Program-made: the position numbers and the translations under genes
In this document: positions 11,321-59,387 of the stretch, one piece after another
Layout: the number at the start of each line of letters is the position of its first letter
Numbering within the stretch: position 1 is the first letter of the stretch
The notes under the pieces: model-generated
Seen by the model: the letters and a program-made list of their open reading frames with translations, nothing else
Told to the model about the DNA's origin: nothing
The model's database searches: none
DNA from: Rhodopseudomonas palustris
GTDB lineage: Bacteria; Pseudomonadota; Alphaproteobacteria; Rhizobiales; Xanthobacteraceae
Assembly: GCF_013415845.1 (NCBI RefSeq)
Contig: NZ_CP058907.1
Location: forward strand, 682,001 to 746,000
Reading direction: 5' to 3'
DNA: 64,000 bases

Positions 11321-13723
11321 CTAACAGCCGAGCGGGGTCACTGCGACGGTGTAAATGGTGATGCCGTCCGCCGGCTCGACCGGAATCAGCAGGCAGCCCT
11401 CGTCGTCTGCAGCGAGGTAGTGCCGTCCGCTGCGGGTCAGCCCGGCCGCGCTGAGGCGGTCGGCGGCGACCGGCATGAACGCTTCGGTGCGCATCGTCTC
11501 GGCGGCCGTGCTTCCGCGCTGGATCATCACCCCGTCGATCAGGCCCTCGCGCGCGAGCCGGCCCAGCGGCACCGCGATCATGGCGATCTGCATCGCGCCA
11601 GACAGTGGAATGCGCAGGCGCAAGCCGCCGAAACCAGTACGCAGCACCGACACCTCCTGAAGCGATCCCGCGCCATCCGCACCGAACAGACCGATTCGGA
11701 GCGAGCCGTGAGGCCGGTCGCCGACCATCTCGCCGGGAAGTTGGCCTGCGCCGAACAACGCATAGAGATAGGCATGCGACGGCGAGACCGCAGCGAAGCT
11801 ACCCGCCATCCACATCGGCGGCGGCGACAGCGCACAGGTCACCGGCAGCCCCCGCAGCGCGATCTGGTTGCTGATCGCGTTGCTGTGAATCATGGGCGCG
11901 AGCGTATCGGTGCCGAGATTGACGTCGTGCTGAAATGAGCCGAACAGCGCCAGTTCTTCGTCGTCCGGCAGCAGCAACAGGCGGCCGAGCGTCGTGGCGG
12001 TCGCGCGCGCGGCGACGCCGAGGTCCCGATAGGGATCGAGCCCGAATTCGTGGGCGACGCCGCGTGCCGCCGACGCGTAGTTCAACACTCCCGCCTGAAT
12101 CTCGGATGTCACCTCGATCTGCGTGGCCGGTCGCGGATCGGGCTCGCGGAGCACATGACCGTCCTCATAGTCGCGTACCGAGCCGTCTGCCGAGCAGCAG
12201 ATCTGCTCGAGGATCGGCGCGTTACGGATCAGCATTCGATTGAGATGCGGCGCCAGCACCAGATCGTCGATCAGCCCGGAAACGGAGTCCTCCTCGGCGA
12301 GCTCGTCCCACGCGTCGCCGAGGGCGAGCAAATAGCAGCCGTGGACGCGCAGCTCGAGACCGGCGAGTTTGAACACGCGGCTCAGCGCCTTCTGCACGCT
12401 GGCCGAATAGCCGAGATCGACCAGCAGCAGGTCGGTGCAGTCGTCGAGGTCGGGAATCTGCTGCCTGATGTAATCGAGCAGGCGTTCGCGCAGACCGGCC
12501 GCCAGCATTGCGATCTCGTGCGGCTCGATCAGGTTTGGAAGGGCATCAGCCAGTTCGGCGCCGGTGGCGATTCCACCGTCGCAGTGCGCAAAAAAATCCG
12601 CCAGGGCCGGCGGCAAGATTTTGAGCATGTCCTGCAGTTTCGCCGCGTCGATCCTTGGGATCTTGCGGATCAATTCGCAGATCGGCCCGATCGTATCGGC
12701 CGAGGCAATCAGGCTGACCCGGCGATTGACCTCCAGATAAGCGGCGGGCTCGCCGCGGGTCTGATGCCACAGGCGGTGCGACAGGAAGCCGTCGCGGCCC
12801 AAAAACCCGATCGCGATACGGCGGCCATCACCTGCAAGGTCGGCCCTGCGCGTCGCCACGAATTCGTCGAATGCTGCCAACACCGGTCCGACCACCGTGC
12901 TGCCGAGATGATGCGCCGCAGATTTTTCGGCACTACGCGCCGCCACCATCCGCCGTAGCGTGCGCGCGCCGTGGTCGAGCCTCGTCGGCTGTCCTTTGAA
13001 CATCAGTTGCTGCAGCGAATCTTCGCGCAGCAGCCGCGTTGTGAGCCGCGGTCCGGCTTGCGGAATGTGCTGTGGCCGGATGCCATGGCGCTTCGCGCCG
13101 CGAATGTCGGCATGCTCATTGTCGCCGACATGGTATGCCGAGCTCGCGTCGATACCTTGTTGGCGCAGATAGGTCGCGAACAGATCCTCTGCCTTGCCGG
13201 TGCCGTGATCGCACGATGCGTAGAGGAAATCCCACGTCAGCCCCGGACTGCAGGCGCGCAGCAGCCGGCCCAGCCGCTCGGTATTCCAATAGGTGTCGGA
13301 GATGAAGCCGACGCGATTTCCGGCGCGGCGCCGCGCGCGATATTGCTCGAGCATGTCCGGATTGATTCGGCATAGTTCGAGTTCGGCGTTGAACTCGGCC
13401 TCGATCAGGTGGTTGAGATCCTCGCGCTCCAATCCGAACAGCCGGAAGGGGAAGCGCGCGTAGATCTGGTCGATGTTGATCTCTGTCGCCTCTCCGCGCG
13501 AACGCGCCGCCTCGCGCACACGCGACTCAGCCAGGATACGATGCTGGACGAAATGGTCAGACACATTCGGACACAGATTCGAAACACGCGACAGCTGATA
13601 AGTCCGCTCGAATACGCCGGTCGGCGTGGTGCAGGCGCGGATCAGAAATGTATCGAAAACATCGAACGACCAGGCGAAACGATTTTGAGCGCGCGGTGTG
13701 TGATCGATAGAAACAAAAGACAT
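11321..13723 (-). CDS. Large HAD-superfamily protein of the glycosylation-cluster type
   Basis: 800 residues from the ATG at 13723; an in-frame TTG lies 16 codons upstream. The N-terminal ~230 residues form a HAD domain: motif I WSFDVFDTFLIR (D21, D24), motif II GFISDTYWN, a lysine in GTGKAEDLF, motif IV YHVGDNEHADIRGAK. The rest (~560 residues) is not recognised. It carries IAIGFLGRDGFLSHRLW and a DLLLVDLGYSASVQKAL segment. This architecture resembles predicted hydrolases (COG5610-like) found in polysaccharide and flagellin-glycan loci. It is the first gene of a three-gene minus-strand set that diverges from the flagellar sigma gene. Confidence 0.6.
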   Translation of the reverse strand: MSFVSIDHTPRAQNRFAWSFDVFDTFLIRACTTPTGVFERTYQLSRVSNLCPNVSDHFVQHRILAESRVREAARSRGEATEINIDQIYARFPFRLFGLEREDLNHLIEAEFNAELELCRINPDMLEQYRARRRAGNRVGFISDTYWNTERLGRLLRACSPGLTWDFLYASCDHGTGKAEDLFATYLRQQGIDASSAYHVGDNEHADIRGAKRHGIRPQHIPQAGPRLTTRLLREDSLQQLMFKGQPTRLDHGARTLRRMVAARSAEKSAAHHLGSTVVGPVLAAFDEFVATRRADLAGDGRRIAIGFLGRDGFLSHRLWHQTRGEPAAYLEVNRRVSLIASADTIGPICELIRKIPRIDAAKLQDMLKILPPALADFFAHCDGGIATGAELADALPNLIEPHEIAMLAAGLRERLLDYIRQQIPDLDDCTDLLLVDLGYSASVQKALSRVFKLAGLELRVHGCYLLALGDAWDELAEEDSVSGLIDDLVLAPHLNRMLIRNAPILEQICCSADGSVRDYEDGHVLREPDPRPATQIEVTSEIQAGVLNYASAARGVAHEFGLDPYRDLGVAARATATTLGRLLLLPDDEELALFGSFQHDVNLGTDTLAPMIHSNAISNQIALRGLPVTCALSPPPMWMAGSFAAVSPSHAYLYALFGAGQLPGEMVGDRPHGSLRIGLFGADGAGSLQEVSVLRTGFGGLRLRIPLSGAMQIAMIAVPLGRLAREGLIDGVMIQRGSTAAETMRTEAFMPVAADRLSAAGLTRSGRHYLAADDEGCLLIPVEPADGITIYTVAVTPLGC

Positions 13724-31474: not shown

Positions 31475-32659
31475 ATGCTCGACAGGCCGCATCACACCAC
31501 GGCGGACATCATCGCCCGTTGCGAGGCGCTGTTCTCCGACCTCAGCTTCACCGCCGCCCGCGAATGGAAGGCCGCAGAGCCCGGCCGCATCGTGGTCGGC
31601 TTTCTGCCCTACTACGCTCCCCGCGAACTGGTCCACGCCGCCGGCGGATTGCCGCTCGGGATCTTCGGTGGCGGCGACCAGCTCGAAGTCATCCACGGCG
31701 ACGCCTACTATCAGAGCTACATCTGCCGAATTCCGCGTTCGACCATCGAGCTCGGCGTCTCCGGCCGGCTCGATTTCGTCGACGGCATGATGTTCCCATC
31801 GATCTGCGACGTGATCCGCAATCTGTCGGGGATGTGGAAGCTGATGTTCCCGTCCAAGGGCGCGCGCTACATCGACCTGCCGCACAATTTCGACGACGAT
31901 CTCGGCGGCGAGTTCTATGTCAGCGAGCTGCGCGAAACCTGCGAATGGTTGTCGAGCCTTACCGGCAAGCCGATCACCTCCGATGCGATCCGCGCCTCGA
32001 TCGCGGTGTTCAACGACAATCGCCGGCTGGTCCGTGCACTGTATCAGCTGCGCGCCGACGAGCCCTGGAACGTGCCGTCCGCGGAACTTTATCTGCTGCT
32101 CCGCGCCGGCATGGTGATCCCGGTCGAGGAGCACAACCAGATGCTCGCGGACTATCTGGCGGCGGTTCGCCTGCAGCAGCGGCCGATCAAGGACAATTCG
32201 CGCGTGGTGATCTGCGGCATGTTCTGTGAGCAGCCACCGCTGAACCTGATCAAGTCGATCGAGCTGTCCGGTTGCTACATCGTCGACGACGACTTCATTC
32301 TGGTGACGCGCTGGGAGAATTCCGACGTCGCGCTCGACGGCGATCCGCTGCAGAGCCTCGCCCGCGCCTATCTGCACGATTCCAAATCGACGCCGCCGAA
32401 ATACGAGCCGGACGAGGCCAAGAAGGGGCTGTATCTCGTCGACAGCGTGCGGAAGAACCGGGCCGAAGGCGTGATCTTCGCCATGACGTCGTTCTGCGAT
32501 CCCGGCCTGCTCGAGCGGCCGATGCTGCAGGCGGTGCTGAAGAGCCATGGCATTCCGCAGATCGCATTCAAATACGCCGAGAACTCCGGCCAGATGCAGC
32601 CGATCCGCGAGCAGGCCGGCACCTTCGCCGATTCGATCAAATTGTGGAGCGGAGCATGA
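31475..32659 (+). CDS. badD: Benzoyl-CoA reductase, gamma-type subunit
   Basis: 394 residues of the 2-hydroxyacyl-CoA dehydratase D-component/BcrC family. Conserved cysteines appear in SYICRIPRST, MFPSICDVIRN and MTSFCDPGLLERPM, where family members bind a [4Fe-4S] cluster. With BadE it forms the ring-reducing half of the ATP-dependent benzoyl-CoA reductase, which converts benzoyl-CoA to a dienoyl-CoA under anoxia and is oxygen-labile. First gene of badDEFGAB. The stop overlaps the badE ATG by 4 bp. Confidence 0.95.
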   Translation: MLDRPHHTTADIIARCEALFSDLSFTAAREWKAAEPGRIVVGFLPYYAPRELVHAAGGLPLGIFGGGDQLEVIHGDAYYQSYICRIPRSTIELGVSGRLDFVDGMMFPSICDVIRNLSGMWKLMFPSKGARYIDLPHNFDDDLGGEFYVSELRETCEWLSSLTGKPITSDAIRASIAVFNDNRRLVRALYQLRADEPWNVPSAELYLLLRAGMVIPVEEHNQMLADYLAAVRLQQRPIKDNSRVVICGMFCEQPPLNLIKSIELSGCYIVDDDFILVTRWENSDVALDGDPLQSLARAYLHDSKSTPPKYEPDEAKKGLYLVDSVRKNRAEGVIFAMTSFCDPGLLERPMLQAVLKSHGIPQIAFKYAENSGQMQPIREQAGTFADSIKLWSGA

Positions 32660-33966
32660 CCGTCATCGTCGGACCGAAGACCAAGCCGCCGGAAGCCATC
32701 AAGGATGCGTCGATGGCGCGGCAGAAGCAGATGGTCAACGCCCACTACGATCGCCTCGCGAGCGCCAAGGAGCGCGGCGAGAAGGTCGCCGCGACCTTCG
32801 TGCCGGGCAATCTCAACGAGCTGCTGATGTGCTTCGACATGGTCAACAACCTGCCGGAGGTCAACGCGATCCAGAACGGGCTGAGGCGGCAAAGCGGCGG
32901 CTACGTGATGGAGGCGGAAAAGCTCGGCCATTCCGAGGACGTCTGCACCTATGTCAAATCCGATATCGGCATGATGGCCAAGGGCAATATCGGTCCGAAC
33001 GGCAAGCCGTTGCCCGACCCGGACGTGCTGCTGTTGTCCTACACCGGCTGCTTCACCTTCATGAAATGGTTCGAGCTGCTGCGCCGGCAGTACAAATGCG
33101 AGACCATCATGTTCCAGACGCCGTATCTGGCCGATGGCCGGATCACCAAGGACATGATCAGCTACATGGTCAAGCAGCTCCGGCAGGACGTCATCCCGAA
33201 GCTGGAGCGGATCTCGGGCGTCAAGTTCGACATCGATCGGCTGCGTGAATACTTACGCAAATCCGCCAAGGCCGAGGACGATCACGTCTGGGTGCTGCAA
33301 TCGGCCAAGCACAAACCGTCGCCGATCGATGCCTATTTCGGCGGGATCTATTACATCGGGCCGATTTTCGGCGCCTTCCGCGGCACCGACGATGCGATCG
33401 AGTATTACAAATTCCTGCGCTCCGAGGTCGAACAGAGGATCGCGCAAGGCAAGGGGCCGGTGACGCCCGACGGCGACATGGGGCAGGAGCGCTACCGGCT
33501 GGTGGTCGAAGGGCCGCCGAACTACACCAATTTCCGCCAGTTCTGGAAGATGTTCTACGACGAAGGCGCCGTCGTGGTCGCCTCGAGCTACACCAAGGTC
33601 GGCGGCACCTACGATTACGGCTTCCGCCACGACCCCGACAGGCCGCTAGAGTCGCTCGCCGAATACTGCCTCAACGTCTACACCAACCGCAATCTGCCGA
33701 TGCGGGTGGACATGCTGGAGAACTACATCAACGAATACGAGGCGGACGGACTCCTGATCAACTCGATCAAGAGCTGCAATTCGTTTTCCGCCGGCCAGCT
33801 CCTGATGATGCGCGAGGTCGAGAAACGCACCGGCAAGCCGGCGGCGTTCATCGAAACAGACCTTGTCGACCCGCGCTATTTCTCCGCCGCCAACGTCAAG
33901 AACCGGCTGGAGAGCTATTTCCAGATGATCGAACAAAAGCGCGCGGGCTTCCGCGGCGCCGCCTGA
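32656..33966 (+). CDS. badE: Benzoyl-CoA reductase, beta-type subunit
   Basis: 436 residues from the ATG at 32656 (ATGA overlap with badD). BcrB/HgdA-like: [58 protein letters not shown] and [20 protein letters not shown]. Its cysteines should ligate the second [4Fe-4S] cluster of the BadDE module, which receives electrons from BadFG. A longer open frame begins at 32272, but it overlaps badD and is not used. Confidence 0.95.
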
Positions 33967-33977
33967 GGAGCGGAACG

Positions 33978-35291
33978 ATGCGCACATTCGTCGGCATAGA
34001 TCTCGGCTCCACCACCACCAAGGCGGTGCTGATGGACGAGAACAAGGAGGTGATCGGGCGCGGCATTACCAATTCGCGCTCGAACTACGCTACCGCGGCC
34101 CGCGTCGCCTCCGAAGAGGCGCGAATCGACGCCCGCTTCACGCTGTTCCGCCGGGCCTTGCATGTCGGCGAAGCCGGCCACGAGCACAGCGCCGAGTTTC
34201 TGGCGGCGCTGGAGCGCAACTTCCGACTGATCCAGTTTCTCGAGCAACTCGACGATCTGGAGGAGACCTGTCACCGCCAGCTCGAGGCGGAGCGGTTCAA
34301 GGCCGTCGCCGGACCGCTGCAGGAGGCGTTGCACGTCATCTTCGCCCGGCTACGGGAGGAGGCAGCTTCGCTCTATGCCCCCGGTGCGAAGCGCAAGTCC
34401 GACTTCTTTCGCGACATCGCCGGCTCGCGGTTTCACGTCCACGCTGAAGCGGTCGCCCGCGAGATGGGCATTGCGCTCGAGATGGTGCTGAACGCCTACG
34501 ACAAATCGATCATCGAGGTCGAGAACCGGCCGCCGGGCGGTGAGCTCAGCGAGAAGTTCCGCCGCGCCGTCGCGCGGATGCTGGCTGTGGATTCGCACGC
34601 GGCCGACGGCGAAGGCGATTTCGCCGCGATGATCGAATCGGCGCTCGGGATCGAGCTGGAGGAAACCTATCTGGTCGGCACCGGCTACGGCCGGGTGACG
34701 CTGCCGTTCTCCAAGGAGCACATTCGCTCCGAGATTCTCTGCCACGGTCTCGGCGCCCACATGATGTATCCCGGCACGCGCACCGTGCTCGACATCGGCG
34801 GACAGGACACCAAGGGCATTCAGATCGACGGCCACGGGATCGTCGAGAATTTCCAGATGAACGACCGCTGCGCCGCCGGCTGCGGCCGCTATCTCGGCTA
34901 CATCGCCGACGAAATGAACATGGGGCTGCACGAACTCGGCCCGCTGGCGATGCAGTCCAATCGCCCGGCGCGGATTAATTCGACCTGCACGGTGTTCGCC
35001 GGCGCCGAACTGCGCGACCGGCTGTCGCTCGGTGAGAAGCGCGAGGACATTCTGGCCGGCTTGCACCGCGCCATCATTCTGCGGGCGATCTCGATCATCT
35101 CGCGCTCCGGCGGCGTCACCGATCAGTTCACCTTCACCGGCGGCGTCGCCAAGAACGAGGCGGCGGTGCGCGAGCTGCGCAAGCTGATCCAGGAGAACTA
35201 CGGCGAGGTGACGATCAACATCAATCCGGACTCGATCTACACCGGCGCCCTCGGCGCCTCCGAATTCGCCCGCCGCGCCGTCGCGGCGTGA
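33978..35291 (+). CDS. badF: Benzoyl-CoA reductase, alpha-type ATPase/activator subunit
   Basis: 437 residues, ASKHA-fold ATPase. Phosphate-1 motif is [20 protein letters not shown]; phosphate-2 region is [16 protein letters not shown]. Cluster cysteines C298 ([15 protein letters not shown]) and C337 ([10 protein letters not shown]) are 39 residues apart, the same spacing as in BadG and in HgdC-type activators. An insertion of ~140 residues after the first motif accounts for the greater length relative to BadG. With BadG it hydrolyses ATP to push electrons from ferredoxin to BadDE. Confidence 0.95.
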
Positions 35292-35384
35292 CGACGGGGT
35301 TGGATAGTGCCGCTTCGTCCGCAAGGGCGAATGGGCAACGGCTTGGTTGATCGAACATACGGCCGGACTTTTGAGGAGGAAACG

Positions 35385-36218
35385 ATGACCATTACGTCGG
35401 GGATCGATGTCGGGACCGGGGCCATCAAGGTGGTGGCGTTCGAGGTCGATGGCGACCAGGAACGTTGCCTCGGCAAGCGGGTCGAGCGGGTGCGGCAGCG
35501 AGATCCGTTGAAGCTCGCCGGCGACATCTATGACGATTTGCTGAAAGAGACGGGCGTGGTGCGCGCCGACGTCGCCTATTGCGCCACGACGGGAGAAGGC
35601 GAGGCGCTCACCTTCCACACCGGGCACTTCTACTCGATGACCACGCATGCCCGCGGCGCGATCTATCTCAATCCGGCCAGCCGCGCGGTGCTGGACACCG
35701 GCGCGCTGCATGGCCGGGCGATCCGCATGGACGAGCGCGGCAAGGTGCTGGCCTACAAGATGACCAGCCAATGTGCGTCGGGCTCCGGGCAATTCCTGGA
35801 GAACATTGCCCGCTATCTCGGTATCGCGCAGGACGAGATCGGTTCGCTGTCGCAGCGTGCCGACAACCCGGAGAAAGTCTCCGGCATCTGCGCCGTGTTG
35901 GCCGAGACCGACGTCATCAACATGGTGTCGCGCGGCATCTCGTCGCCGAATATCTTGCGCGGCATCCATGAATCGATGGCCGACCGGCTTGCCAAGCTGC
36001 TCAAAACTCTCGGCAGCCTCGACGGCACGGTGCAGATGACCGGCGGTCTGGCGCTCGACGCCGGGCTGGTCGAGGCGATGAAGGACGCCGTGGTCAAGGC
36101 CAAGGTCGACGTAGCGATCGAGAGCCACCCGGATTCGATCTATGCCGGCGCGATCGGCGCAGCACTGTGGGGAGCCTTCCGTCACAAGAGGCTTGCCGAC
36201 ATGGCCCGCGCCGCCTGA
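35385..36218 (+). CDS. badG: Benzoyl-CoA reductase, delta-type ATPase/activator subunit
   Basis: 277 residues from the ATG at 35385, which follows GAGGAGGAAACG. ASKHA motifs SGIDVGTGAIKVVAFEVDG and VQMTGGLALDAGLVEAMKD. Cysteines C130 (MTSQCASGSGQFLENI) and C169 (SGICAVLAETDVIN) are spaced by 39, matching BadF, and the four residues of the heterodimer should bridge one [4Fe-4S] cluster. There is a 93-bp gap after badF. Confidence 0.95.
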   Translation: MTITSGIDVGTGAIKVVAFEVDGDQERCLGKRVERVRQRDPLKLAGDIYDDLLKETGVVRADVAYCATTGEGEALTFHTGHFYSMTTHARGAIYLNPASRAVLDTGALHGRAIRMDERGKVLAYKMTSQCASGSGQFLENIARYLGIAQDEIGSLSQRADNPEKVSGICAVLAETDVINMVSRGISSPNILRGIHESMADRLAKLLKTLGSLDGTVQMTGGLALDAGLVEAMKDAVVKAKVDVAIESHPDSIYAGAIGAALWGAFRHKRLADMARAA

Positions 36219-45919: not shown

Positions 45920-46411
45920 ATGGATGAAACGATGCTGCGACGCCGCAAGCGTTTGCTCGGCCTGAACGTCAACGGTCGATGGCGCGAGGACGCGGTTACT
46001 GACGACATGTTGCTGGTCGATTACTTGCGCGATATCGCGGGCCTCACCGGCGTCAAGACCGGCTGCGACGGCGGCGAGTGCGGTGCTTGCACCGTGCTGA
46101 TCGACGGCGAAGCAGCGCCATCCTGCCTGGTGCTCGCGGTGCGCTGCGAGGGACGCCACGTCGAGACAATCGAGGGCCTGGCGGCGAATGGGCGGCTGCA
46201 TCGTCTGCAGCAGACTTTTCACGAGCGGCTCGGTGCCCAATGCGGCTTCTGCACCCCCGGCATGATCATGGCGGCGGAAGGCCTGTTGCGCCGCAATCCC
46301 ACGCCGACCGACGAAGAGATCAGGACCGCGCTATCCGGTAATCTCTGCCGATGCACCGGTTACGCTAAGATCGTGGAATCGGTGCAGGCCGCCGCGGAGA
46401 TCGCGCCATGA
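45920..46411 (+). CDS. hbaB: 4-Hydroxybenzoyl-CoA reductase, gamma subunit (two [2Fe-2S])
   Basis: 163 residues of the xanthine oxidase small-subunit family. First cluster C49, C54, C57, C69 (TGCDGGECGACTVLIDG); second C108, C111, C143, C145 (QCGFCTPG and LCRCTGYAK). It carries electrons between the FAD/[4Fe-4S] subunit and the molybdenum site. GAGGGAG precedes the ATG. The stop overlaps hbaC (ATGA). Confidence 0.95.
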   Translation: MDETMLRRRKRLLGLNVNGRWREDAVTDDMLLVDYLRDIAGLTGVKTGCDGGECGACTVLIDGEAAPSCLVLAVRCEGRHVETIEGLAANGRLHRLQQTFHERLGAQCGFCTPGMIMAAEGLLRRNPTPTDEEIRTALSGNLCRCTGYAKIVESVQAAAEIAP

Positions 46412-48741
46412 GCGGTCCCGCATTCCAAGGCGGTCTCGACCGCGCCGGCGTGCCGCTGGTCGACGGTATTGATAAGGTCACGGGGCGGGCGCGGTACACC
46501 GCCGATCTCGATCATACCGGAGCATTAGTTGCTCGCATCCTACGTAGCCCGATCAGTCATGGCGATATCGTCCGGCTCGATGTCAGCAAGGCGTTGGCAC
46601 TCGACGGTGTCGCGGCGATCGTCACCGGCCAGGACTGCGCAATCACGTATGGCGTGTTGCCGATCGCGATGAACGAGTATCCGATGGCGCGTGATCGCGT
46701 CCGGTATCGCGGTGAACCGGTTGCGGCAGTGGCCGCGGTCGATGCCGAGACGGCGCGGCAGGCGCTCGACCTGATCGAACTCGAGCTGCGTGAACTGCCG
46801 GCTTACTACGAGTCGGAGGCCGCCCGTGCCCCGGATGTCTGGCTACTGCACGACAACAAGCCAGGCAATATCGAGCGCGAGGTTCACAACGAGTTCGGCG
46901 ATCTCGCCGCAGGCTTCGAAGCCGCCGATCTGATCCGCATCCACACGCATCATTGTGCCGAGGTCAATCACGCGCAGATCGAGCCGCACGCCTGCTTGAT
47001 GGATTACGATCCAGTCACCGGGAGGCTGACCGCCCAGAGCGTATCGCAGGTCGGCTATTATCTGCACCTGATGCTGGCCCGGTGTCTTGAGATCGATCCG
47101 TCGCGGGTGCGGGTGATCAAGCCGTTCGTCGGCGGTGGCTTCGGCGCCCGCGTGGAAGTGTTGAATTTCGAGGTGATTGCCGCACTGCTCGCCCGTAAGG
47201 CCGGTGGCAGAGTGTCGATGCGGCTGAGCCGTGAAGAGACCTTCATCACCCACCGCGCCCGGCCGCAGACCGACATCACCTTGACGATCGGGATGCGGCG
47301 CGACGGCCGGCTCACCGCCTGCTCGTGCGAAGTGGTGCAGCGCGGCGGCGCCTATGCGGGTTACGGCATCGTTACCATCCTGTATGCTGGCGCGCTGCTG
47401 CAGGGGCTGTACGACATCCCCGCCGTCAAATACGACGGCTACCGCGTCTACACCAACCTGCCACCCTGCGGCGCGATGCGCGGGCACGGCTCGGTCGACG
47501 TTCGTCACGCCTTCGAGAATCTGGTCGATCGGATGGCGCGCGAACTCGGTCTCGATCCTTTTGCGGTGCGCCGCGCCAATCTGCTGGCCGCGCCGACGCG
47601 CACCCTCAACGATCTGATGGTCAACAGCTATGGTCTCGCCGAATGCCTCGACAAGGTCGAGCGCGCCAGCGGTTGGCATGAGCGAATTGGCCGGCTGCCG
47701 CCGGGCAAGGGTCTCGGCATGGCGTGTTCGCACTATGTCAGCGGTTCGGCCAAGCCGATCCATTTCACCGGCGAGCCCCATGCAGTGGTGGCGCTGCGGC
47801 TCGATTTCGATGGCGGCATCACCGCGCTCACCGGCGCCGCCGACATCGGCCAGGGCTCGTCGACGGTCGTGGCGATCACTGTTGCTGAAACCCTGGGCGT
47901 CGCACTGAACCGGGTCCGGGTAATTTCCGGCGACTCTGCAGTTACCCCGAAGGACAATGGCGCGTATTCGTCGCGCATCACCTTCATGGTCGGCAACGCC
48001 GCAATCGATGCGGCGACCAAGTTGAAACAGATCCTGATCGCGGCGGCAGCGCGGAAACTCGAAGCCGCGCCGGAGCAGATCGAGTGTGCCGGCGAGAGCT
48101 TCTTCATCGGCAGCGGTGCCCAGGCCGCGCTCGGCTTCGCCGAGGTGGTGAAAGCCGCGCTGGTCGACGAGGGCGCCATCACCGTCAAGGGCACCTTCAC
48201 CTGCCCGCCGGAATCGCAGGGCGGCAAACATCGCGGCGGTGCGGTCGGCTCGACGATGGGCTTCAGCTATGCGGCCCAGGTGGTCGAGGTCAGCGTCGAC
48301 GACGCGACTGGCCTGATCACCGTCGACAAGGTCTGGGCCGCGCTCGATTGCGGCCGTGCCATCAATCCGCTCGCCGTGGTCGGGCAGGTGCAGGGCGCCG
48401 TGTGGATGGGGATGGGGCAGGCGATGTGCGAGGAGACGCGCTATCTCGACGGGCTGCCCGCGCATGCCAGCTTCCTCGAATATCGGATGCCGACGATGAT
48501 CGAATCGCCGCCGATCGAGGTCGCGATCGTCGAGAGCGTCGATCCGTTCGGGCCGTTCGGCGCCAAGGAGGCCAGCGAAGCCGCTCTCGCCGGTTTCCCG
48601 CCGGCGATGGTGAATGCCGTCGCCAATGCGATCGGTATCGATCTCGATGATTTGCCGGCAACGCCCGATCGGGTCGTCGAGGCGCTGGCACGGCGGCGGC
48701 GCGAGGCAAAGCGGGCGGTGGCGGCGAGGGCAGTCTCATGA
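46408..48741 (+). CDS. hbaC: 4-Hydroxybenzoyl-CoA reductase, alpha (molybdopterin) subunit
   Basis: 777 residues of the xanthine oxidase large-subunit family. Visible pieces: KVTGRARYTADLDHTGALVA, YRGEPVAAVAAVDAETARQA, KPFVGGGFGARVEVLNFEVI (Mo cofactor loop), GAMRGHGSVDVRHAFE, GAADIGQGSSTVVAITVAET and a C-terminal GPFGAKEASEAALAGFPPA, containing the glutamate expected at the molybdenum site. It removes the phenolic hydroxyl of 4-hydroxybenzoyl-CoA to give benzoyl-CoA. It overlaps both neighbours by 4 bp. Confidence 0.95.
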   Translation: MSGPAFQGGLDRAGVPLVDGIDKVTGRARYTADLDHTGALVARILRSPISHGDIVRLDVSKALALDGVAAIVTGQDCAITYGVLPIAMNEYPMARDRVRYRGEPVAAVAAVDAETARQALDLIELELRELPAYYESEAARAPDVWLLHDNKPGNIEREVHNEFGDLAAGFEAADLIRIHTHHCAEVNHAQIEPHACLMDYDPVTGRLTAQSVSQVGYYLHLMLARCLEIDPSRVRVIKPFVGGGFGARVEVLNFEVIAALLARKAGGRVSMRLSREETFITHRARPQTDITLTIGMRRDGRLTACSCEVVQRGGAYAGYGIVTILYAGALLQGLYDIPAVKYDGYRVYTNLPPCGAMRGHGSVDVRHAFENLVDRMARELGLDPFAVRRANLLAAPTRTLNDLMVNSYGLAECLDKVERASGWHERIGRLPPGKGLGMACSHYVSGSAKPIHFTGEPHAVVALRLDFDGGITALTGAADIGQGSSTVVAITVAETLGVALNRVRVISGDSAVTPKDNGAYSSRITFMVGNAAIDAATKLKQILIAAAARKLEAAPEQIECAGESFFIGSGAQAALGFAEVVKAALVDEGAITVKGTFTCPPESQGGKHRGGAVGSTMGFSYAAQVVEVSVDDATGLITVDKVWAALDCGRAINPLAVVGQVQGAVWMGMGQAMCEETRYLDGLPAHASFLEYRMPTMIESPPIEVAIVESVDPFGPFGAKEASEAALAGFPPAMVNAVANAIGIDLDDLPATPDRVVEALARRRREAKRAVAARAVS

Positions 48742-49721
48742 CCGCCTTGAATGCGTTGAATTTGCTTCGGCCGGGCTCGGTGGACGAAGCGATCGCCGCA
48801 CTGCTGGCGCATCCGGGCGGACGGCTGCTCGGTGGTGGAACGGATCTTCTAGTCAACATGCGGCGCGGTGTGACGCAGCCGGAGACACTGATCGACACTA
48901 CCGGCATTGCCGAGATCAAGCAGCTCGTCGCCGATGGCAGCGGTCTGACCATCGGCGCGGGTGTCACCCTGGCGAGTCTCGCCGCCGATGGCCGGGTCGC
49001 CGCGCGCTATCCGGCGCTGAGCGAGGCTGCGCGTGCCGTAGCGGGGCCCGGTCACCGCAAACTGGGCACCGTCGGCGGCAATCTCTGCCTCGACACCCGC
49101 TGCATCTACTACAATCAAAGCGAATGGTGGCGGCGCGCGAATTCGTACTGCTTGAAGAACCGCGGCGAGACCTGTCATGTCGCGCCGAAGGGCAATCGAT
49201 GCCACGCTGCCTTCAGCGGTGATCTGGCACCTGCGCTGCTGGTCCTCGGTGCCGAGGTGGAGATCGCCGGGCTGGCCGGCCGGCGCCGCATCCCACTCGG
49301 CGAGCTGTATGTCGAAGACGGCCGGGCGCATCTTGCGCTGCGGCCGGGCGAGGTCGTGGTCACGGTGCGGCTGCCAGCCGACCCGCTCGCGTCGCGCTAC
49401 GTCAAGGTGCGGCAGCGCGGCGCGATCGACTATCCGCTCGCCGGAGTCGCTGTGGCGCTGGCGCGGTCGGGCTCCAGACTCGCGCAGCTTCGCATTGCAC
49501 TGACCGGGACCAATTCGCGGCCGTTTCTGCTCGCAGAAACGGCAGCCTTCGCGCAACGGTCGCTCGATGACGCGCTGCTGCGCGAGATCGATCGGCTGGT
49601 GCAGAAGCAGGTGCAGCCGATGCGGACGACGCTGATGCCGGCCAACTACCGGCGCGTCGTTGCAGCGGCTCTGGCCAGCCGCATCACGGCCGAGCTGTTC
49701 GCCTCGCTGGCGCCCGCGTAG
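48738..49721 (+). CDS. hbaD: 4-Hydroxybenzoyl-CoA reductase, beta subunit (FAD and extra [4Fe-4S])
   Basis: 327 residues. FAD motifs are LLGGGTDLLVNMRRGV and LGTVGGNLCLDTRC. The loop unique to 4-hydroxybenzoyl-CoA reductases is present, with cysteines C122, C138, C146 and C155, the same numbers reported for the additional [4Fe-4S] cluster of the Thauera enzyme. This separates it from ordinary xanthine-oxidase FAD subunits and supports operation as a reductase fed by low-potential ferredoxin. It converges on hbaR. Confidence 0.96.
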   Translation: MTALNALNLLRPGSVDEAIAALLAHPGGRLLGGGTDLLVNMRRGVTQPETLIDTTGIAEIKQLVADGSGLTIGAGVTLASLAADGRVAARYPALSEAARAVAGPGHRKLGTVGGNLCLDTRCIYYNQSEWWRRANSYCLKNRGETCHVAPKGNRCHAAFSGDLAPALLVLGAEVEIAGLAGRRRIPLGELYVEDGRAHLALRPGEVVVTVRLPADPLASRYVKVRQRGAIDYPLAGVAVALARSGSRLAQLRIALTGTNSRPFLLAETAAFAQRSLDDALLREIDRLVQKQVQPMRTTLMPANYRRVVAAALASRITAELFASLAPA

Positions 49722-52760: not shown

Positions 52761-54455
52761 ATGGCCGAGGCCGCAGACACGCGTCCGCTCGCGAACGGAG
52801 CTGTGCGGGTCGATTTTCAGACCGAGCCGTCCCGCTACCGGCATTGGAAGCTGACGGTCGATGGCGAGATCGCGACGCTCACCCTCGATGTCGACGAGAA
52901 CGGCGGCCTGTTCGAGGGCTACCAGCTCAAGCTGAATTCCTACGATCTCGGAGTCGACATCGAGCTTGCCGACGCGATGCAGCGGCTTCGGTTTGAGCAT
53001 CCGGCCGTGAAAGTCATCCTACTTCGCTCCGGCAAGAACCGGGTGTTCTGCGCCGGCGCCAACATCCGGATGCTCGCCGGCGCCAGCCATGTCCACAAAG
53101 TCAACTTCTGCAAGTTCACCAACGAAACCCGCAATGGCATCGAGGATTCCTCGCAGCATTCCGGCCAGCGCAGCATCGCGGTGATCAACGGCACCGCGGC
53201 CGGCGGCGGCTACGAACTCGCGCTCGCCGCCGATCACATCATTATGGCTGACGACGGTTCGGCTGCAGTGGCGTTGCCGGAAGTGCCTCTACTTGCGGTG
53301 CTGCCGGGCACCGGCGGCCTGACCCGCGTCATCGATAAGCGCAAGGTGCGCCGCGACCACGCCGACGTGTTCTGCACCATCGAAGAAGGCATCAAGGGCA
53401 AGCGCGCGGTGCAGTGGCGGCTGGTCGACGATATCGTCGCCACTACCAAGCTTGACGCGAAGGTGACTGAGCGCGCCAGTGAGCTTGCTGCGGCTTCCCC
53501 GCGCAACGGAAGCGGCGCGGGTGTCCCGTTGACGCCGCTGCAGCGCCAATTCGACGACACCAGCGTGCGCTATGGATTGGTCGGCGTCGAGATCGATCGT
53601 ACCGCCCGGATCGCGACCATCACGCTGACGGGCCCGGACGCGGCTCCGCCGACTTCGATCGATGCATTGCAAGCGCAGGGCGCTGCGTTCTGGCCGTTGC
53701 AGCTCGCTCGCGAACTCGACGACGCCATCCTGCATCTGCGGCTGAACGAACCGGAATTGGGACTCTGGGTGTTCAAGTCCCACGGTGATGCCGAGCAAGT
53801 CCTGGCCTATGACGCGCTGCTCGAAGCGCACAAAGGCCACTGGCTGGTCAACGAAATCCGTCACTTCTGGAAGCGCGTACTGAAGCGCGTCGACGTCACG
53901 TCGCGTTCTCTGGTCACGCTAGTCGAGCCAGGCTCGTGCTTCGCCGGCACGCTGGCGGAGCTCGTGTTCGCCGCCGACCGCAGCTACATGCTGATTGGCT
54001 CTCGCGACGGCGACAACCGTCCGCCGCCGATGCTGACGCTGTCGGCGCTGAACTTCGGCGCCTATCCGATGAGCCACGGTCTCACCCGGCTGCAGTCGCG
54101 CTTCCAAGCTGATCCGGCCGACCACGCGGCGGTGCAGAGCAAAACTGGCGAAGCGCTCGACGCCGAGGCGGCTGAGACGCTCGGTCTGGTCACATTTGCG
54201 CTCGACGATATCGATTGGGACGACGAGGTCCGCGTCTTCCTGGAAGAGCGCGCGTCGTTTTCGCCCGACAGCCTCTCCGGCATGGAAGCCAACCTGCGCT
54301 TCGTCGGTCCCGAGACGATGGAATCGAAAATCTTCGCCCGGCTCACCGCCTGGCAGAACTGGATCTTCCAGCGTCCTAATGCGGTCGGCGAAGTCGGCGC
54401 GCTGCGCCGCTACGGCAGCGGCCAGAAGCCACAATTCGATATGACGAGAGTCTGA
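52761..54455 (+). CDS. boxC: Benzoyl-CoA-dihydrodiol lyase (aerobic ring-cleaving crotonase)
   Basis: 564 residues, the double-length crotonase typical of BoxC. The first unit has SGKNRVFCAGANIRMLAGAS and GTAAGGGYELALAADHIIMA followed by LPEVPLLAVLPGTGGLTRVI. The second has WVFKSHGDAEQVLAYDALLE, RSLVTLVEPGSCFAGTLAEL and NFGAYPMSHGLTRLQSRF. BoxC opens the ring of the epoxide/dihydrodiol of benzoyl-CoA hydrolytically, giving 3,4-dehydroadipyl-CoA semialdehyde and formate. It is separated from boxB by a 169-bp gap with a REP-like element. Confidence 0.95.
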   Translation: MAEAADTRPLANGAVRVDFQTEPSRYRHWKLTVDGEIATLTLDVDENGGLFEGYQLKLNSYDLGVDIELADAMQRLRFEHPAVKVILLRSGKNRVFCAGANIRMLAGASHVHKVNFCKFTNETRNGIEDSSQHSGQRSIAVINGTAAGGGYELALAADHIIMADDGSAAVALPEVPLLAVLPGTGGLTRVIDKRKVRRDHADVFCTIEEGIKGKRAVQWRLVDDIVATTKLDAKVTERASELAAASPRNGSGAGVPLTPLQRQFDDTSVRYGLVGVEIDRTARIATITLTGPDAAPPTSIDALQAQGAAFWPLQLARELDDAILHLRLNEPELGLWVFKSHGDAEQVLAYDALLEAHKGHWLVNEIRHFWKRVLKRVDVTSRSLVTLVEPGSCFAGTLAELVFAADRSYMLIGSRDGDNRPPPMLTLSALNFGAYPMSHGLTRLQSRFQADPADHAAVQSKTGEALDAEAAETLGLVTFALDDIDWDDEVRVFLEERASFSPDSLSGMEANLRFVGPETMESKIFARLTAWQNWIFQRPNAVGEVGALRRYGSGQKPQFDMTRV

Positions 54456-54624: not shown

Positions 54625-56076
54625 ATGAATATGAACATCATGCACGTCGACTACTCGACCAAGATTCCCAACAACGTCGATCTCGGTTCCGATCGCCAGG
54701 TGCTGAAGGCGCTCGAGGGATGGCATCCTGGCTATATCGACTGGTGGAACGACATGGGGCCGGAGGGTTTCCAGGAGTCGCTGGTGTATTTGCGCACGGC
54801 GTATTCGGTCGACCCGCGCGGTTGGGCAAAGTTCGACTACGTCAAGATGCCAGACTATCGCTGGGGTATTCTGCTGGCTCCGAAGGAGGAGGGCCGCGTC
54901 GTGCCGTTCGGCCAGCATTATGGCGAGCCGGCCTGGCAGGAGGTGCCGGGCGAGCACCGTGCGATGCTGCGCCGGCTGATCGTGATCCAGGGCGACACCG
55001 AGCCGGCCTCGGTGGAGCAGCAGCGCCATCTCGGCAAGACCGCGCCGTCGCTCTACGACATGCGCAACCTGTTCCAGGTCAACGTCGAAGAAGGCCGCCA
55101 TCTGTGGGCGATGGTTTATCTGCTGCAGAAATATTTCGGCCGCGACGGCCGTGAGGAGGCCGATGGTCTGCTCCGCCGCCGTTCCGGCTCGGACGACGCA
55201 CCGCGGATGCTGGGCGCGTTCAACGAGGCCACGCCGGACTGGCTGTCGTTCTTCATGTTCACCTACTTCACCGACCGCGACGGCAAGATGCAGCTGCATA
55301 GCCTGGCGCAGTCGGGCTTCGATCCTCTGTCGCGCACCTGCCGGTTCATGCTGACCGAAGAAGCGCACCATATGTTCGTCGGCGAGACCGGCATCAGCCG
55401 GGTGGTGCAGCGGACCTGCGACGCGATGCGTGTCGCCGGGATCACCGATCCGACCGATGTCGACAAGGTGCGCGCGCTCGGCGTCATCGACCTGCCGACT
55501 GTGCAGAAGAAGCTCAATCTGCACTACTCGCTGTCACTCGATCTGTTCGGTTCGGAAGTTTCGACCAACGCCGCCAACGCCTTCAATGCCGGCATCAAGG
55601 GGCGCTTCCACGAGACCCAGATCCAGGACGACCACAAGCTTGAGCGCGACACCTATCCGGTGCTGAAGCTGGTCGACGGCGAGATCAAGCGGGTCGACGA
55701 ACCGGCGCTCACCGCGCTCAACATGCGGCTGCGCGACGATTACTCGCAGGACTGCGTCAAGGGCCTGTTGCGCTGGAACAAGGTGATCACCACCGCCGGC
55801 TACGATTTCCAGCTCAAGCTGCCGCATGTCGCATTCCATCGCCAGATCGGCGAGTTCAAGGACGTCGAAGCGACACCGGACGGCGTGCTGATCGATCCGG
55901 CGACCTGGGCCAAGCGGCGCCACGAATGGCTGCCGTCGGCCGACGACGGAGAGTTCATCGCCTCGCTGATGGTGCCGGTGTCCGAGCCCGGGCAGTACGC
56001 GCCGTGGATCTCGCCGCCGAAGGTTGGCATCGACAATCGTCCCGGCGATTTCGAGTACGTCAAGATCGAGACCTGA
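54625..56076 (+). CDS. boxB: Benzoyl-CoA 2,3-epoxidase, oxygenase component
   Basis: 483 residues from the ATG at 54625. It is a ferritin-like diiron protein with N-terminal MNMNIMHVDYSTKIPNNVDL. Likely iron ligands are E125, E156 and H159 (VEEGRHLWAM), D205, and E246 and H249 (LTEEAHHMFVGE); the two ExxH pairs have the BoxB spacing. It uses O2 to make 2,3-epoxybenzoyl-CoA and normally takes electrons from BoxA, which is not encoded here. A terminator follows. Confidence 0.95.
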   Translation: MNMNIMHVDYSTKIPNNVDLGSDRQVLKALEGWHPGYIDWWNDMGPEGFQESLVYLRTAYSVDPRGWAKFDYVKMPDYRWGILLAPKEEGRVVPFGQHYGEPAWQEVPGEHRAMLRRLIVIQGDTEPASVEQQRHLGKTAPSLYDMRNLFQVNVEEGRHLWAMVYLLQKYFGRDGREEADGLLRRRSGSDDAPRMLGAFNEATPDWLSFFMFTYFTDRDGKMQLHSLAQSGFDPLSRTCRFMLTEEAHHMFVGETGISRVVQRTCDAMRVAGITDPTDVDKVRALGVIDLPTVQKKLNLHYSLSLDLFGSEVSTNAANAFNAGIKGRFHETQIQDDHKLERDTYPVLKLVDGEIKRVDEPALTALNMRLRDDYSQDCVKGLLRWNKVITTAGYDFQLKLPHVAFHRQIGEFKDVEATPDGVLIDPATWAKRRHEWLPSADDGEFIASLMVPVSEPGQYAPWISPPKVGIDNRPGDFEYVKIET

Positions 56077-56402
56077 GGCGCGCCGCGCTGTCGCGGCGCT
56101 CTCGTTATTAGACCTATGTCTAAGGCCGCCCCGCCGAAAGCGGGGCGGCCTTTGCAGGCCGGTCATGCGGTCGGAACGCCGAGCGGAGTCTCGTGTGTTG
56201 CCCGTCAGCGCCGGTGAATGGCGCACAAATCAGCCCAATCCGTTGATGGTGACCACGAAGATGGGGCCCGCCGGCAAGCGTGCGGCACCGGACCGGACAT
56301 GACCGAAGTCAAATCAATTTGGCGCTCGTTGGCTATTTTGGGCCGCTTTCCCTTCACCTTTCGACGCCGTTCGCCGGCCTCGGACCAATCTGTGCTGTCA
56401 CC
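56077..56402. other. Gap between boxB and the Nfn-rubrerythrin fusion gene
   Basis: 326 bases. It holds a strong hairpin terminator (56124-56153) and then about 250 bases before the ATG at 56403, which should contain the next gene's promoter. No open frame here is convincing and no clear operator or sigma-70 promoter was recognised. Confidence 0.6.
56124..56153 (+). terminator. Intrinsic terminator after boxB
   Basis: Perfect 11-bp stem GGCCGCCCCGC / GCGGGGCGGCC around the loop CGAAA, followed by TTT. The U-tract is short but the stem is very stable. It separates boxCB from the next gene. Confidence 0.75.
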
Positions 56403-59387
56403 ATGTATCGTATTGTGCGACGCGAGCAGTTCTCGGACGCGACCTTTCTGTGGGACGTCGAGGCGCCGGATATCGCGGCTTCGGCCGAGCCCGGCCATTT
56501 CGTGATGCTGCGTCTCTACGACGGTGCCGAGCGCATTCCGCTCACCGTTGCCGATTTCGATCGCGACAAGGGACTGGTGACCGTCGTCGTCCAGGCGCTC
56601 GGCAAGACCACGCGAGAGATGCGCGACAAGTTCAAGGAAGGTGAGGCGTTCGAGGATTTCGTCGGGCCGCTCGGCCTGCCGCAACACATCGATAAGGTCG
56701 ATCACGTGGTGTTCGTCGGCGGCGGCCTCGGCGTCGCGCCGATCTTCCCGCAGCTTCGCGCCTTCAAGCAATCCGGCGCGCGCACCACCGCGATCATGGG
56801 CTTCCGCACCAAGGATCTGGTGTTTTGGGAAGACAAGTTCCGCGAGTTCGCCGACGAACTGATCATCTGCACCGATGACGGCAGCTACGGCGAGCCCGGC
56901 CTCGTCACCGCAGCGCTGGAGCGGGTGATCACCCAGCAGAAGCCCGACAAGGTGGTGGCGATCGGCCCGATGCCGATGATGCACGCTTGCGTCGAGACGA
57001 CCCGTCCGCACGGCGTCAAGACCATGGTGTCGCTCAACACCATCATGGTCGATGGCACCGGCATGTGCGGTTCGTGCCGCGTCACGGTCGGTGGCGAAGT
57101 GAAGTTCGCCTGTGTCGACGGCCCGGATTTCGACGGCCACAAGGTCGACTTCCACGAGTTGCATGCGCGCCAGAAGCGGTTCAAGACCGAGGAAGACAAG
57201 GCGAATGAACACTTCGCCCATGTCTGCAATCTGGAAAAGCAGCTGATCGTCGAGGGCAAGCGCAACTACAAGAAGCTGGCGACGCTGCCGCCGCATCAGA
57301 CGCCGATGCCGGAGCGCGATGCCCACGAGCGCGCCACCAACTTCAAGGAAGTCAATCTCGGCTATTCGGTCGAGGAAGCCCTGCAGGAAGCCGAGCGCTG
57401 CATCCAGTGCATCACACCGACCTGCGTCGCCGGCTGCCCGGTCGGGATCGACATTCCGGTTTTCATCCGCAACATCCTGTTCCGCGATTTCGACGCCGCG
57501 CTGGAGACGATCTATCAGTCGAGCATCTTCCCATCGATCTGCGGCCGCGTCTGTCCGCAGGAGACCCAGTGCGAAGCGCAGTGCATCATCCGCAAATACA
57601 AGAAGCATGAGCCGGTCGCGATCGGCCGGCTTGAGCGCTTCATCGGCGACAATGCGCGGGCGCCGAAGAGCAAGCCGATCGATCTCAGCAAAGCCATCGG
57701 CAAGGTCGCGATCGTCGGCTCCGGTCCGGCTGGCCTCGCCGCCGCCGCTGATCTCACCCGCTACAATGTCGAGACCACGGTGTACGAGGCGCTGCACGTG
57801 CTCGGCGGCGTGCTGCAATACGGCATTCCGTCGTTCCGGCTGCCGCGCGACATCATCGATCGCGAAATCCAGCGGCTGAAGGACATCGGCGTCAAGTTCG
57901 AGACCAACAAGGTCGTCGGCAAGACCTTCACCATCGAACAGTTGATGAATGGACGCGGCTTCGACGCGGTGTTCGTGGCGGCGGGCGCCGGTGCGCCGAC
58001 CTTCCTGGGTATTCCCGGTGAGTTCGCCGGCCGGGTCTATTCGGCCAACGAGTTCCTCACTCGTATCAACCTCATGGGCGGCGACCGCTTCCCGTATCTC
58101 GACACGCCGGTCAGCGTCGGCAACAGCGTTATCGTGATCGGTGCCGGCAACACCGCGATGGACTGCCTGCGCGTCGCCCGCCGCGTCGGCGCCGCGACGG
58201 TGCGCTGCGTGTATCGCCGCTCCGAGGCTGAAGCGCCGGCCCGCATCGAGGAAATCCGCCACGCCAAGGAGGAGGGAGTCGATTTCTTCTTCCTGCACTC
58301 GCCGGTGGAGATTCTTGTCACCGAAAGCGGCGACGTTCGTGCGGTGCGGCTGCAGAAAATGGAGCTCGGCGAGGCCGACGAGCGCGGCCGCCGCAAGCCG
58401 GTGCCGCTCGACGAGTTTATCGAGCTCGAATGCGACACCGTGATCTACGCGCTCGGCACCAAGCCCAATCCGATCATCGGCCAGGCGACGCCCGGCCTCG
58501 CGCTCAACAAGTGGGGCAACATCGCAGCCGATGACGACACCCAGTCGACCAACATGCCGGGCGTGTTCGCCGGCGGCGATATCGTCACCGGTGGCGCGAC
58601 TGTGATCTTGGCGATGAGCGCGGGTCGCCGCGCCGCCAAGTCGATCGCGGCCTGGCTGCGGCTGAACAAGACCAAGTGGCCCATCACGGTGCAGGATGCC
58701 GACGACTTCGTCGCCGGCAAGCTGGCGCCTGCGATCGAGGAGGATGGCGTGGCGCATTGCCCGAAGTGTCACCAGCCACTGGAAGGCTCCGAAGAGTACA
58801 TCTGCTGCGCTGGTTCGGAGCTGCAGTGGCGCTGCGACAACTGTGCCAAGGTCAGCGAAGGCTTCGCGTTCCCCTATGGCATGTGCCCGCACTGCGGCGG
58901 CAAGCTGCAGCCGCTCGATCGCGCCGGCGTTAGCGATGAGGCGGGACTTGGGGCGATCCGCACCGCTTTCGAGATCGAGCTTGGTGGCCGCGCGTTCTAT
59001 GCCCGCGCCGCAAAGGAGACCTCCGATCCGACATTGCAGGAGCTGTTCCTCAGCTTCGCCGCGATGGAAGAGGAGCACATGACCACGCTGGCCAATCGCT
59101 ACCATGTGGCGATTCCGCAGGCGACCGAGGGTTTCCATCTCAGCACCGCGGCGATCATGGCCGGCGTCAAAGGCCGGATCGGCGATCCGACCACGCTGTT
59201 CGAAGCCGCGATCGAGTTTGAACGGCGCGCCGCCTCGTTCTTCAAGACCCGGGTCGGCGAGACGCCGGACGGTTCGGTCGAGCGCCAGCTCTATCGCGAG
59301 CTCGCCGCCGAAGAGGACGAGCACGTCTCGGTGCTGCAGACCGAATTCGCGCGCTGGAAGGAAGGCAAGCGCGGGCTGCTGACGTAA
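56403..59387 (+). CDS. NfnA-NfnB-like oxidoreductase fused to a zinc-ribbon and rubrerythrin-like domain
   Basis: 994 residues from the ATG at 56403; the open frame starts 41 codons earlier. Residues ~1-280: ferredoxin-NADP reductase/NfnA part with FAD site RIPLTVADF and a [2Fe-2S] site of D217, C222, C225, C237. Residues ~300-760: NfnB/GltD-like part with [4Fe-4S] sites C333, C336, C341, C345 and C380, C384, C390, C394, an FAD motif VGSGPAG (~438) and an NADPH motif IGAGNTA (~579). Residues ~785-832: four CxxC-like pairs (CPKC, CC, CDNC, CPHC). Residues ~850-980: ferritin-like helices with MEEEH (~889) and EEDEH (~970). Nfn enzymes couple NADH, NADPH and ferredoxin. Possible roles: electron supply to BoxB, ferredoxin re-reduction, or peroxide removal. 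All three are inference. Confidence 0.85.
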   Translation: MYRIVRREQFSDATFLWDVEAPDIAASAEPGHFVMLRLYDGAERIPLTVADFDRDKGLVTVVVQALGKTTREMRDKFKEGEAFEDFVGPLGLPQHIDKVDHVVFVGGGLGVAPIFPQLRAFKQSGARTTAIMGFRTKDLVFWEDKFREFADELIICTDDGSYGEPGLVTAALERVITQQKPDKVVAIGPMPMMHACVETTRPHGVKTMVSLNTIMVDGTGMCGSCRVTVGGEVKFACVDGPDFDGHKVDFHELHARQKRFKTEEDKANEHFAHVCNLEKQLIVEGKRNYKKLATLPPHQTPMPERDAHERATNFKEVNLGYSVEEALQEAERCIQCITPTCVAGCPVGIDIPVFIRNILFRDFDAALETIYQSSIFPSICGRVCPQETQCEAQCIIRKYKKHEPVAIGRLERFIGDNARAPKSKPIDLSKAIGKVAIVGSGPAGLAAAADLTRYNVETTVYEALHVLGGVLQYGIPSFRLPRDIIDREIQRLKDIGVKFETNKVVGKTFTIEQLMNGRGFDAVFVAAGAGAPTFLGIPGEFAGRVYSANEFLTRINLMGGDRFPYLDTPVSVGNSVIVIGAGNTAMDCLRVARRVGAATVRCVYRRSEAEAPARIEEIRHAKEEGVDFFFLHSPVEILVTESGDVRAVRLQKMELGEADERGRRKPVPLDEFIELECDTVIYALGTKPNPIIGQATPGLALNKWGNIAADDDTQSTNMPGVFAGGDIVTGGATVILAMSAGRRAAKSIAAWLRLNKTKWPITVQDADDFVAGKLAPAIEEDGVAHCPKCHQPLEGSEEYICCAGSELQWRCDNCAKVSEGFAFPYGMCPHCGGKLQPLDRAGVSDEAGLGAIRTAFEIELGGRAFYARAAKETSDPTLQELFLSFAAMEEEHMTTLANRYHVAIPQATEGFHLSTAAIMAGVKGRIGDPTTLFEAAIEFERRAASFFKTRVGETPDGSVERQLYRELAAEEDEHVSVLQTEFARWKEGKRGLLT

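Follow-up and report, generated by a model that had tools for sequence, protein, structure and literature searches.

A single-chain Nfn with a C-terminal diiron module in Rhodopseudomonas palustris, matching AadN and probably supplying low-potential electrons to benzoyl-CoA reductase

A stretch of 64,000 nucleotides of the Rhodopseudomonas palustris genome (contig NZ_CP058907.1, positions 682,001 to 746,000; hereafter the window) encodes a 994-residue protein in which both halves of an Nfn oxidoreductase are joined to a cysteine-rich ribbon and a ferritin-like diiron domain. The gene lies directly downstream of boxC and boxB, with hba and bad genes farther upstream (Table 1), which raises the question of which of these pathways, if any, the protein serves and what its extra domain contributes. 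The gene is already published as aadN, and our analysis supports the electron role proposed for it and does not support a role in the box pathway. We consider it probable, with some reservation, that AadN is an NAD(P)H-driven, bifurcating ferredoxin reductase for benzoyl-coenzyme A (CoA) reductase, and in relatives for nitrogenase or the pyruvate:ferredoxin oxidoreductase (PFOR) pool, with an attached module that would reduce O2 or peroxide.

Along the frame, which is open without an internal stop, the Nfn small half is followed by the Nfn large half, an eight-cysteine ribbon and a four-helix diiron domain. A preliminary description of the locus had reported the single open frame and the same domain reading, including EExH-type motifs in the ferritin-like part, and both are borne out by the motifs and by the NCBIfam family NF009413 (PRK12775), which covers residues 1–993 (2135.6 bits, cut-off 1895). 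The family name, a putative trifunctional protein with a ferritin domain, carries no tested function. Using motif definitions taken from the main text of PMC6405883, we find ERxPxT at residue 43 and DGTGMCGxCRx10CV at residue 217 in the NfnA part, and RCx2Cx4Cx3CPV at 332, GRVCPQExQCx3Cx13Gx2ER at 381, GSGPAG at 439 and GAGNTA at 580 in the NfnB part. The protein has the [2Fe-2S] motif with its Asp, two [4Fe-4S] motifs and the flavin adenine dinucleotide (FAD) motifs of an Nfn. Four Nfn motifs (two with relaxed spacing) are present in all 36 aligned single chains, namely the window protein and 35 of the 37 single-chain loci described below (L030 and L062 were left out). In cofactor motifs and A-B order the protein resembles Nfn patterns A and B, to which its ribbon and diiron module are an addition at the C-terminus; the main text of PMC6405883 does not mention rubrerythrin.

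Table 1. Coordinates of the features of the window
Feature	Position	Strand	Basis
AadN ortholog: Nfn in one chain, ending in the ribbon and diiron module	56403..59387	+	994 residues and stop
NfnA-like part, residues 1–277 (FAD, [2Fe-2S], NAD(H))	56403..57233	+	NF004862 over 1–277, 387 bits; 5jca_S over 1–261, E 7.7e-91; motifs at 43, 217
NfnB-like part, residues 298–754 (two [4Fe-4S], FAD, NADPH)	57294..58664	+	4ylf_B over 298–754, E 1.2e-146; Fer4_20; motifs at 332, 381, 439, 580
Eight-Cys ribbon, residues 786–831	58758..58895	+	eight Cys invariant in 32/32 module sequences
Ferritin-like four-helix domain, residues 846–986	58938..59360	+	ligands invariant 36/36; 2fzf E 3.1e-9; 2oh3 E 1e-6; module model pLDDT 78.4
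In-frame GTG extension, 41 codons, judged a non-coding leader	56280..56402	+	codon-position counts; 2-nt indel in one species
Inverted repeat TTAGAC-N4-GTCTAA, perfect, TTAGACCTATGTCTAA	56108..56123	.	start of leader region common to 6/6 genus carriers
Terminator-like hairpin directly past boxB stop	56080..56099	+	8 G-C pairs, loop 4
boxB, neighbour, judged outside the system	54628..56076	+	TIGR03225, 911.6 bits
boxC, neighbour	52761..54455	+	TIGR03222, 1020.8 bits
hbaBCD, 4-hydroxybenzoyl-CoA reductase	45920..49721	+	TIGR03193, TIGR03194, TIGR03195 above cut-off
badDEFG region, class I benzoyl-CoA reductase, likely electron sink	31475..36218	+	TIGR02263, TIGR02259, TIGR02261 above cut-off; second subunit (~32656–33966) outside family scan

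Lewis, Sarne and Fixen, 2023 (PMC9973337) renamed Rpa0678 of R. palustris CGA009, a fused Nfn near the hba genes, AadN. Without aadN, strain CGA753 was impaired in anaerobic growth on benzoate and on 4-hydroxybenzoate and still grew on cyclohexane carboxylate; AadN was described as required for growth on the two aromatic acids and was proposed to feed electrons to benzoyl-CoA reductase (PMC9973337). The electron supply for aromatic metabolism suggested in the preliminary description agrees with these published genetics. The aromatic-degrading strains tabulated in that paper have either aadN or korAB, AadN being defined there by >90% identity to WP_011156245. In its architecture (a single-chain NfnA-NfnB with conserved cofactor motifs), its place near hbaBCD and the bad genes, and a cysteine as residue 38 when counting begins at an upstream GTG, the window gene matches AadN as a likely ortholog, a match that rests on these three traits. 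The gene is present in 6 of 16 genus genomes, and the products of the five other carriers are 98.0–98.9% identical to the window protein.

When the main text of PMC9973337 is searched for rubrerythrin, ferritin, diiron or C-terminal, none of these words is found. In the main texts of the open-access literature searched, we found no Nfn fused to rubrerythrin and no account of three of the features described below: this Nfn carrying or adjoining a diiron module in 73 of 80 loci, the pair of Nfn and module at nif operon ends in other bacteria, and a possible effect of the published C38W change at the level of translation instead of protein function. Reverse rubrerythrin and the multidomain flavodiiron proteins of clostridia have a Cys4 part before the diiron domain, or carry electrons from NADH to O2 within one self-sufficient chain, and they are not known to have an Nfn core or low-potential clusters.

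In the mechanism that we propose, the Nfn core would take electrons from NAD(P)H and bifurcate them at the FAD of the large half. The low-potential electrons would then travel along the two [4Fe-4S] clusters, reduce a ferredoxin and so reach benzoyl-CoA reductase, and in relatives they may reach nitrogenase or a ferredoxin pool shared with PFOR. The ribbon and diiron module would form a rubrerythrin-like O2 or peroxide reductase fed by the same flavin chain, and could guard oxygen-sensitive partners when oxygen leaks in. Support for this reading comes from the orthology, the cofactor motifs in 36/36 chains and the deletion phenotype, and also from the enrichment of BcrA and nifH in carrier genomes, from nif, PFOR and 4-hydroxybenzoyl-CoA reductase neighbours, and from invariant diiron ligands. 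Low-potential electron supply to nitrogenase and benzoyl-CoA reductase in aerotolerant bacteria is a practical question, for example in moving nitrogen fixation to new hosts.

To survey relatives, we scanned a collection of 84,980 species, which yielded 162 related stretches, and kept the best 80. A nifV-like gene (recognized by eye) and nifW stand immediately upstream in 6 of the 80 loci, five of which have nifK as well; nifD, nifK, nifE and NifW were typed by hidden Markov models in L068, and the nif partners of the other loci were assigned by cluster. A PFOR cluster was found in 18/80 loci (typed in L072, the rest by cluster; L108 has a further partial one, by eye), and 4-hydroxybenzoyl-CoA reductase neighbours the Nfn gene in 6/80. 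The common thread of these partners is a need for very-low-potential ferredoxin, which fits an Nfn run towards ferredoxin reduction.

Co-occurrence was compared between the genomes of 50 of the 80 carrier loci (37 single-chain and 13 others) and a 249-genome sample of the phylum, with odds taken on 247 genomes after two full-length carriers, the window genome (G000) and G551, had been left out. In this comparison, which is unmatched for taxonomy and in which many of the 50 carriers are metagenome bins, nifH was above cut-off in 19/50 carriers and 34/247 controls, and BcrA in 16/50 carriers (21/50 at E ≤ 1e-130) and 1/247 controls. The raw counts in the 249 genomes were 35 for nifH, 3 for BcrA and 19 for boxB, with G000 in all three and G551 in BcrA and boxB. 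Overall, 38 of the 50 carriers have nifH or BcrA, benzoyl-CoA reductase being searched as subunit A of the class I enzyme only.

The same data bear on the alternative that the protein serves oxygen defence alone, as a peroxidase or oxidase that uses NAD(P)H and whose Nfn core does no more than feed the module. Complete diiron ligands would suit such an enzyme, as would the many single-chain loci, among those listed, that have no telling neighbour. We nevertheless think it improbable, given a deletion defect on benzoate and 4-hydroxybenzoate with none on cyclohexane carboxylate (PMC9973337), [4Fe-4S] motifs kept in 36/36 chains, and the nif and PFOR neighbourhoods. An exclusive role in one pathway is also hard to maintain: the preliminary description had suggested a pathway-specific function, against which a wide spread of the fusion among genomes without aromatic genes would argue, and 26 of 50 carriers, many of them metagenome bins, have neither BcrA (E ≤ 1e-130) nor boxB. 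The family is thus not aromatic-specific.

The C-terminal module follows the Nfn part in most relatives. Among the 80 loci, 37 encode a single chain, 30 encode the module in a gene of its own immediately downstream of the Nfn gene, 5 have it at the front of a CoA-ligase-like protein, one (L047) shows it by tblastn only, and 7 have none in the stretch examined; where present (73/80) it is always contiguous with the Nfn part. In the five CoA-ligase-like cases (L046, L049, L063, L065, L069) the module is fused to the N-terminus of the protein encoded directly after the Nfn gene, for example at 12350–14518 of L065, in which the partner was typed as AMP-binding; the other four were assigned by cluster. 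At L012 / L068, a single locus at a nif operon end, only a stop codon and a short gap separate the Nfn gene from the module gene, a possible intermediate of fusion or fission. The module adjoins the Nfn even where it has its own gene or is fused to a different enzyme. For this reason the two probably act together, the module most likely reducing O2 or peroxide.

The ribbon cysteines are at positions 786, 789, 801, 802, 811, 814, 828 and 831; in the alignment of 36 single chains the first four are conserved to at least 90% and the last four without exception, and the whole-ribbon pattern fits 34. In its second half the ribbon is similar to the rubredoxin part of rubrerythrin, aligning weakly (E 0.035) with residues 150–178 of the D. 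vulgaris protein 1b71. Such a ribbon could pass electrons to the diiron site, and it may be a zinc ribbon instead of a rubredoxin-type Cys4 iron site. In the four-helix domain, which has the rubrerythrin-type order E, ExxH, E, ExxH, the expected ligands E859, E889, H892, E940, E971 and H974 are invariant in 36/36 single chains and 32/32 module sequences, and E857 is likewise invariant in the 36 single chains. With the ligand set complete, a role in O2 or peroxide reduction is plausible. The Pfam Rubrerythrin match is borderline (20.0 bits for the whole protein and 24.9 for the module alone, cut-off 22.8), and a fold comparison returned no rubrerythrin among the 50 matches listed, which excludes nothing.

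Several observations weigh against the proposed ferredoxin reductase with an O2- or peroxide-reducing module, in addition to the unmatched carrier comparison given above. Twelve of the 50 carriers have neither nifH nor BcrA, and BcrA is without a match at E ≤ 1e-20 in the genome of either Rhodopseudomonas JA575 or BR0M22. In 7/80 loci, two of them in nif clusters, the stretch examined contains no module, so ferredoxin reduction would not need it. The literature searched yielded no enzyme assay of AadN. The aadN deletion strain grows on benzoate under nitrogen-fixing conditions, which the authors credit to FixABCX (PMC9973337), so that AadN is not the sole possible donor. Finally, Ala179 of the module, three residues past the helix-C Glu, is invariant in 32/32 module sequences. 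Rubrerythrin has an extra Glu on helix C, three residues past the bridging Glu, and if the invariant Ala corresponds to it, the diiron site may react differently.

The invariant Ala, in the apparent place of this Glu, also favours the doubtful alternative that the module reduces neither O2 nor peroxide and instead has a structural, iron-storing or regulatory role, such as that of a lid sensing metal or oxygen. In agreement with such a role, the module matches uncharacterised COG1633 proteins best and, when folds are compared, ferritins; the invariance of both ExxH pairs, Cys pairs that are invariant or nearly so, and the module's constant association with an oxidoreductase speak against it.

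A further alternative makes the module part of the bifurcation itself: O2 or H2O2 at the diiron site would be the high-potential acceptor, and NAD(P)H oxidation would pull ferredoxin reduction uphill. The presence of the module in the same chain in 37/80 loci and its contiguity with the Nfn in 73/80 are in keeping with this idea, as is the predicted Rub-Bfu, in which a rubrerythrin gene lies beside a different bifurcating core and NADH and ferredoxin are predicted as joint donors (PMC9304861). Rub-Bfu resembles AadN in setting a bifurcating core beside rubrerythrin and differs in that its core is BfuBC, not Nfn, and its rubrerythrin a separate gene. The seven module-free loci, the absence of any measured activity and the anaerobic nature of the published phenotype (PMC9973337) all count against oxidant-driven bifurcation, as does a full-length structure model too uncertain to place the module relative to the core (predicted local distance difference test score, pLDDT, 73.0; predicted template modelling score, pTM, 0.49), and we give it little credence. 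If it were true, the enzyme would use traces of O2 or peroxide to power the ferredoxin reduction that supplies nitrogenase or benzoyl-CoA reductase, and in doing so would remove an oxidant able to destroy them. Further work is best directed at the diiron module.

The position of the gene directly after boxB, where boxA stands in other genomes, together with a single-contig genome (5.32 Mb) without boxA above cut-off, suggested that the fusion might substitute for BoxA and reduce BoxB in the aerobic benzoyl-CoA epoxidase pathway. BoxA (TIGR03224) has no match at the fusion; the best hits of the genome lie elsewhere and score 69.4 bits against a cut-off of 459.2, and boxA above cut-off is likewise absent from the 15 other genus genomes. 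Five genomes of the same family (L137–L141), with BoxB 87–89% identical, have boxCB without boxA within ~6 kb, and none of them matches the fusion at E ≤ 1e-200; the common replacement of boxA is therefore something other than the fusion. BoxA is above cut-off in 8 of 21 boxB-positive carriers; 13 of the 21 have no boxA at E ≤ 1e-30, and in at least two of these 13 (G753, G784) boxB is at a contig edge. With the synteny and the hairpin described next, these data led us to reject BoxA substitution as highly improbable.

The link to the box genes drawn in the preliminary description is not supported more generally. BoxB and BoxC occur in 0/80 related loci, within the stretches examined, some of which are short. 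Among the six genus carriers, bad, hba and box genes accompany aadN only in the window genome and G798. The other four (G797, G799, G804, G808) keep the downstream YgiQ gene and have no bad, hba or box gene within 34–55 kb upstream (the G808 stretch reaches a contig end), the downstream search extending only to the end of the examined stretches; the siting of AadN with anaerobic aromatic genes is therefore a trait of the window that these four do not share. A terminator-like hairpin directly follows boxB (the scan of 501 bases gave 2 sites of this type, and shuffled sequence 0.5 on average), and the sequence common to all six carriers starts just past it. Because of this hairpin, the shared leader beyond it and the absence of box genes upstream in four of six carriers, the window gene is probably transcribed as a unit by itself, the box genes being local neighbours. 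A box-specific association was also considered for the wider family: boxB is enriched (21/50 carriers against 17/247 controls), yet BcrA (E ≤ 1e-130) accompanies it in 18 of these 21, leaving no clear separate boxB signal. Two genes of the benzoate-CoA-ligase family, read as badA and hbaA, are also present upstream in the window.

The frame can be extended upstream to the GTG, giving 1035 residues. In the four species that keep this frame, substitutions relative to the window number 11, 23 and 8 at codon positions 1, 2 and 3 of the extension, against 51, 33 and 700 in the gene proper. The leader of G799 carries a 2-base deletion, and a GTG is found at the matching place in 4/6 genus carriers. 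As the extension does not evolve as coding DNA, the ATG is the better start, in accordance with the choice made in the preliminary description. An upstream open reading frame from ATG 56299 was considered and set aside, since substitutions fall mostly on its would-be first codon position.

This start bears on the AadN suppressor C38W (PMC9973337). Counted from the ATG, residue 38 is a Leu, invariant in 36/36 chains; counted from the GTG it is a Cys, whose codon (TGT, 56391–56393) lies four codons before the ATG and is kept in 6/6 genus carriers. If CGA009 is alike, the published change appears to fall in the untranslated leader and may alter the level of AadN through translation. It has no effect on anti-Shine-Dalgarno pairing (best duplex energy −3.2 for both), and in one estimate the folding energy of the start region changes from −18.7 to −22.8 kcal/mol. 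The inverted repeat TTAGACCTATGTCTAA lies just past the point at which box and non-box genomes diverge, is exact or changed in the other genus carriers, and is a possible operator.

At E ≤ 1e-100 the plasmid records with matches number five; these are Nfn cores below 60% identity, none covering 80% of the query. Upstream motifs were scanned in 83 regions, comprising 77 of the 80 loci and 6 genus sequences (among which L029 and L030 recur). NifA and sigma-54 sites were found in 3 and 4 of the 83, about the level of shuffles (55 and 85 of 1660). FNR-type sites (≤2 mismatches) were found in 24/83 regions compared with 61/1660 shuffles and are exact in three (L074, L078, L092). They lie ~100–290 bases upstream of the Nfn gene (L072, L074, L078, L092 and relatives), mostly in related loci, and a divergent neighbour may be their owner. 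The window genome also encodes a second, reversed fusion (pattern C, NfnB-NfnA; NF009415, 944 residues) at G000:C1:5188934–5191768 (L147 4935–7769), followed by DNA polymerase I; the remaining relatives in the genome score at most 233 bits.

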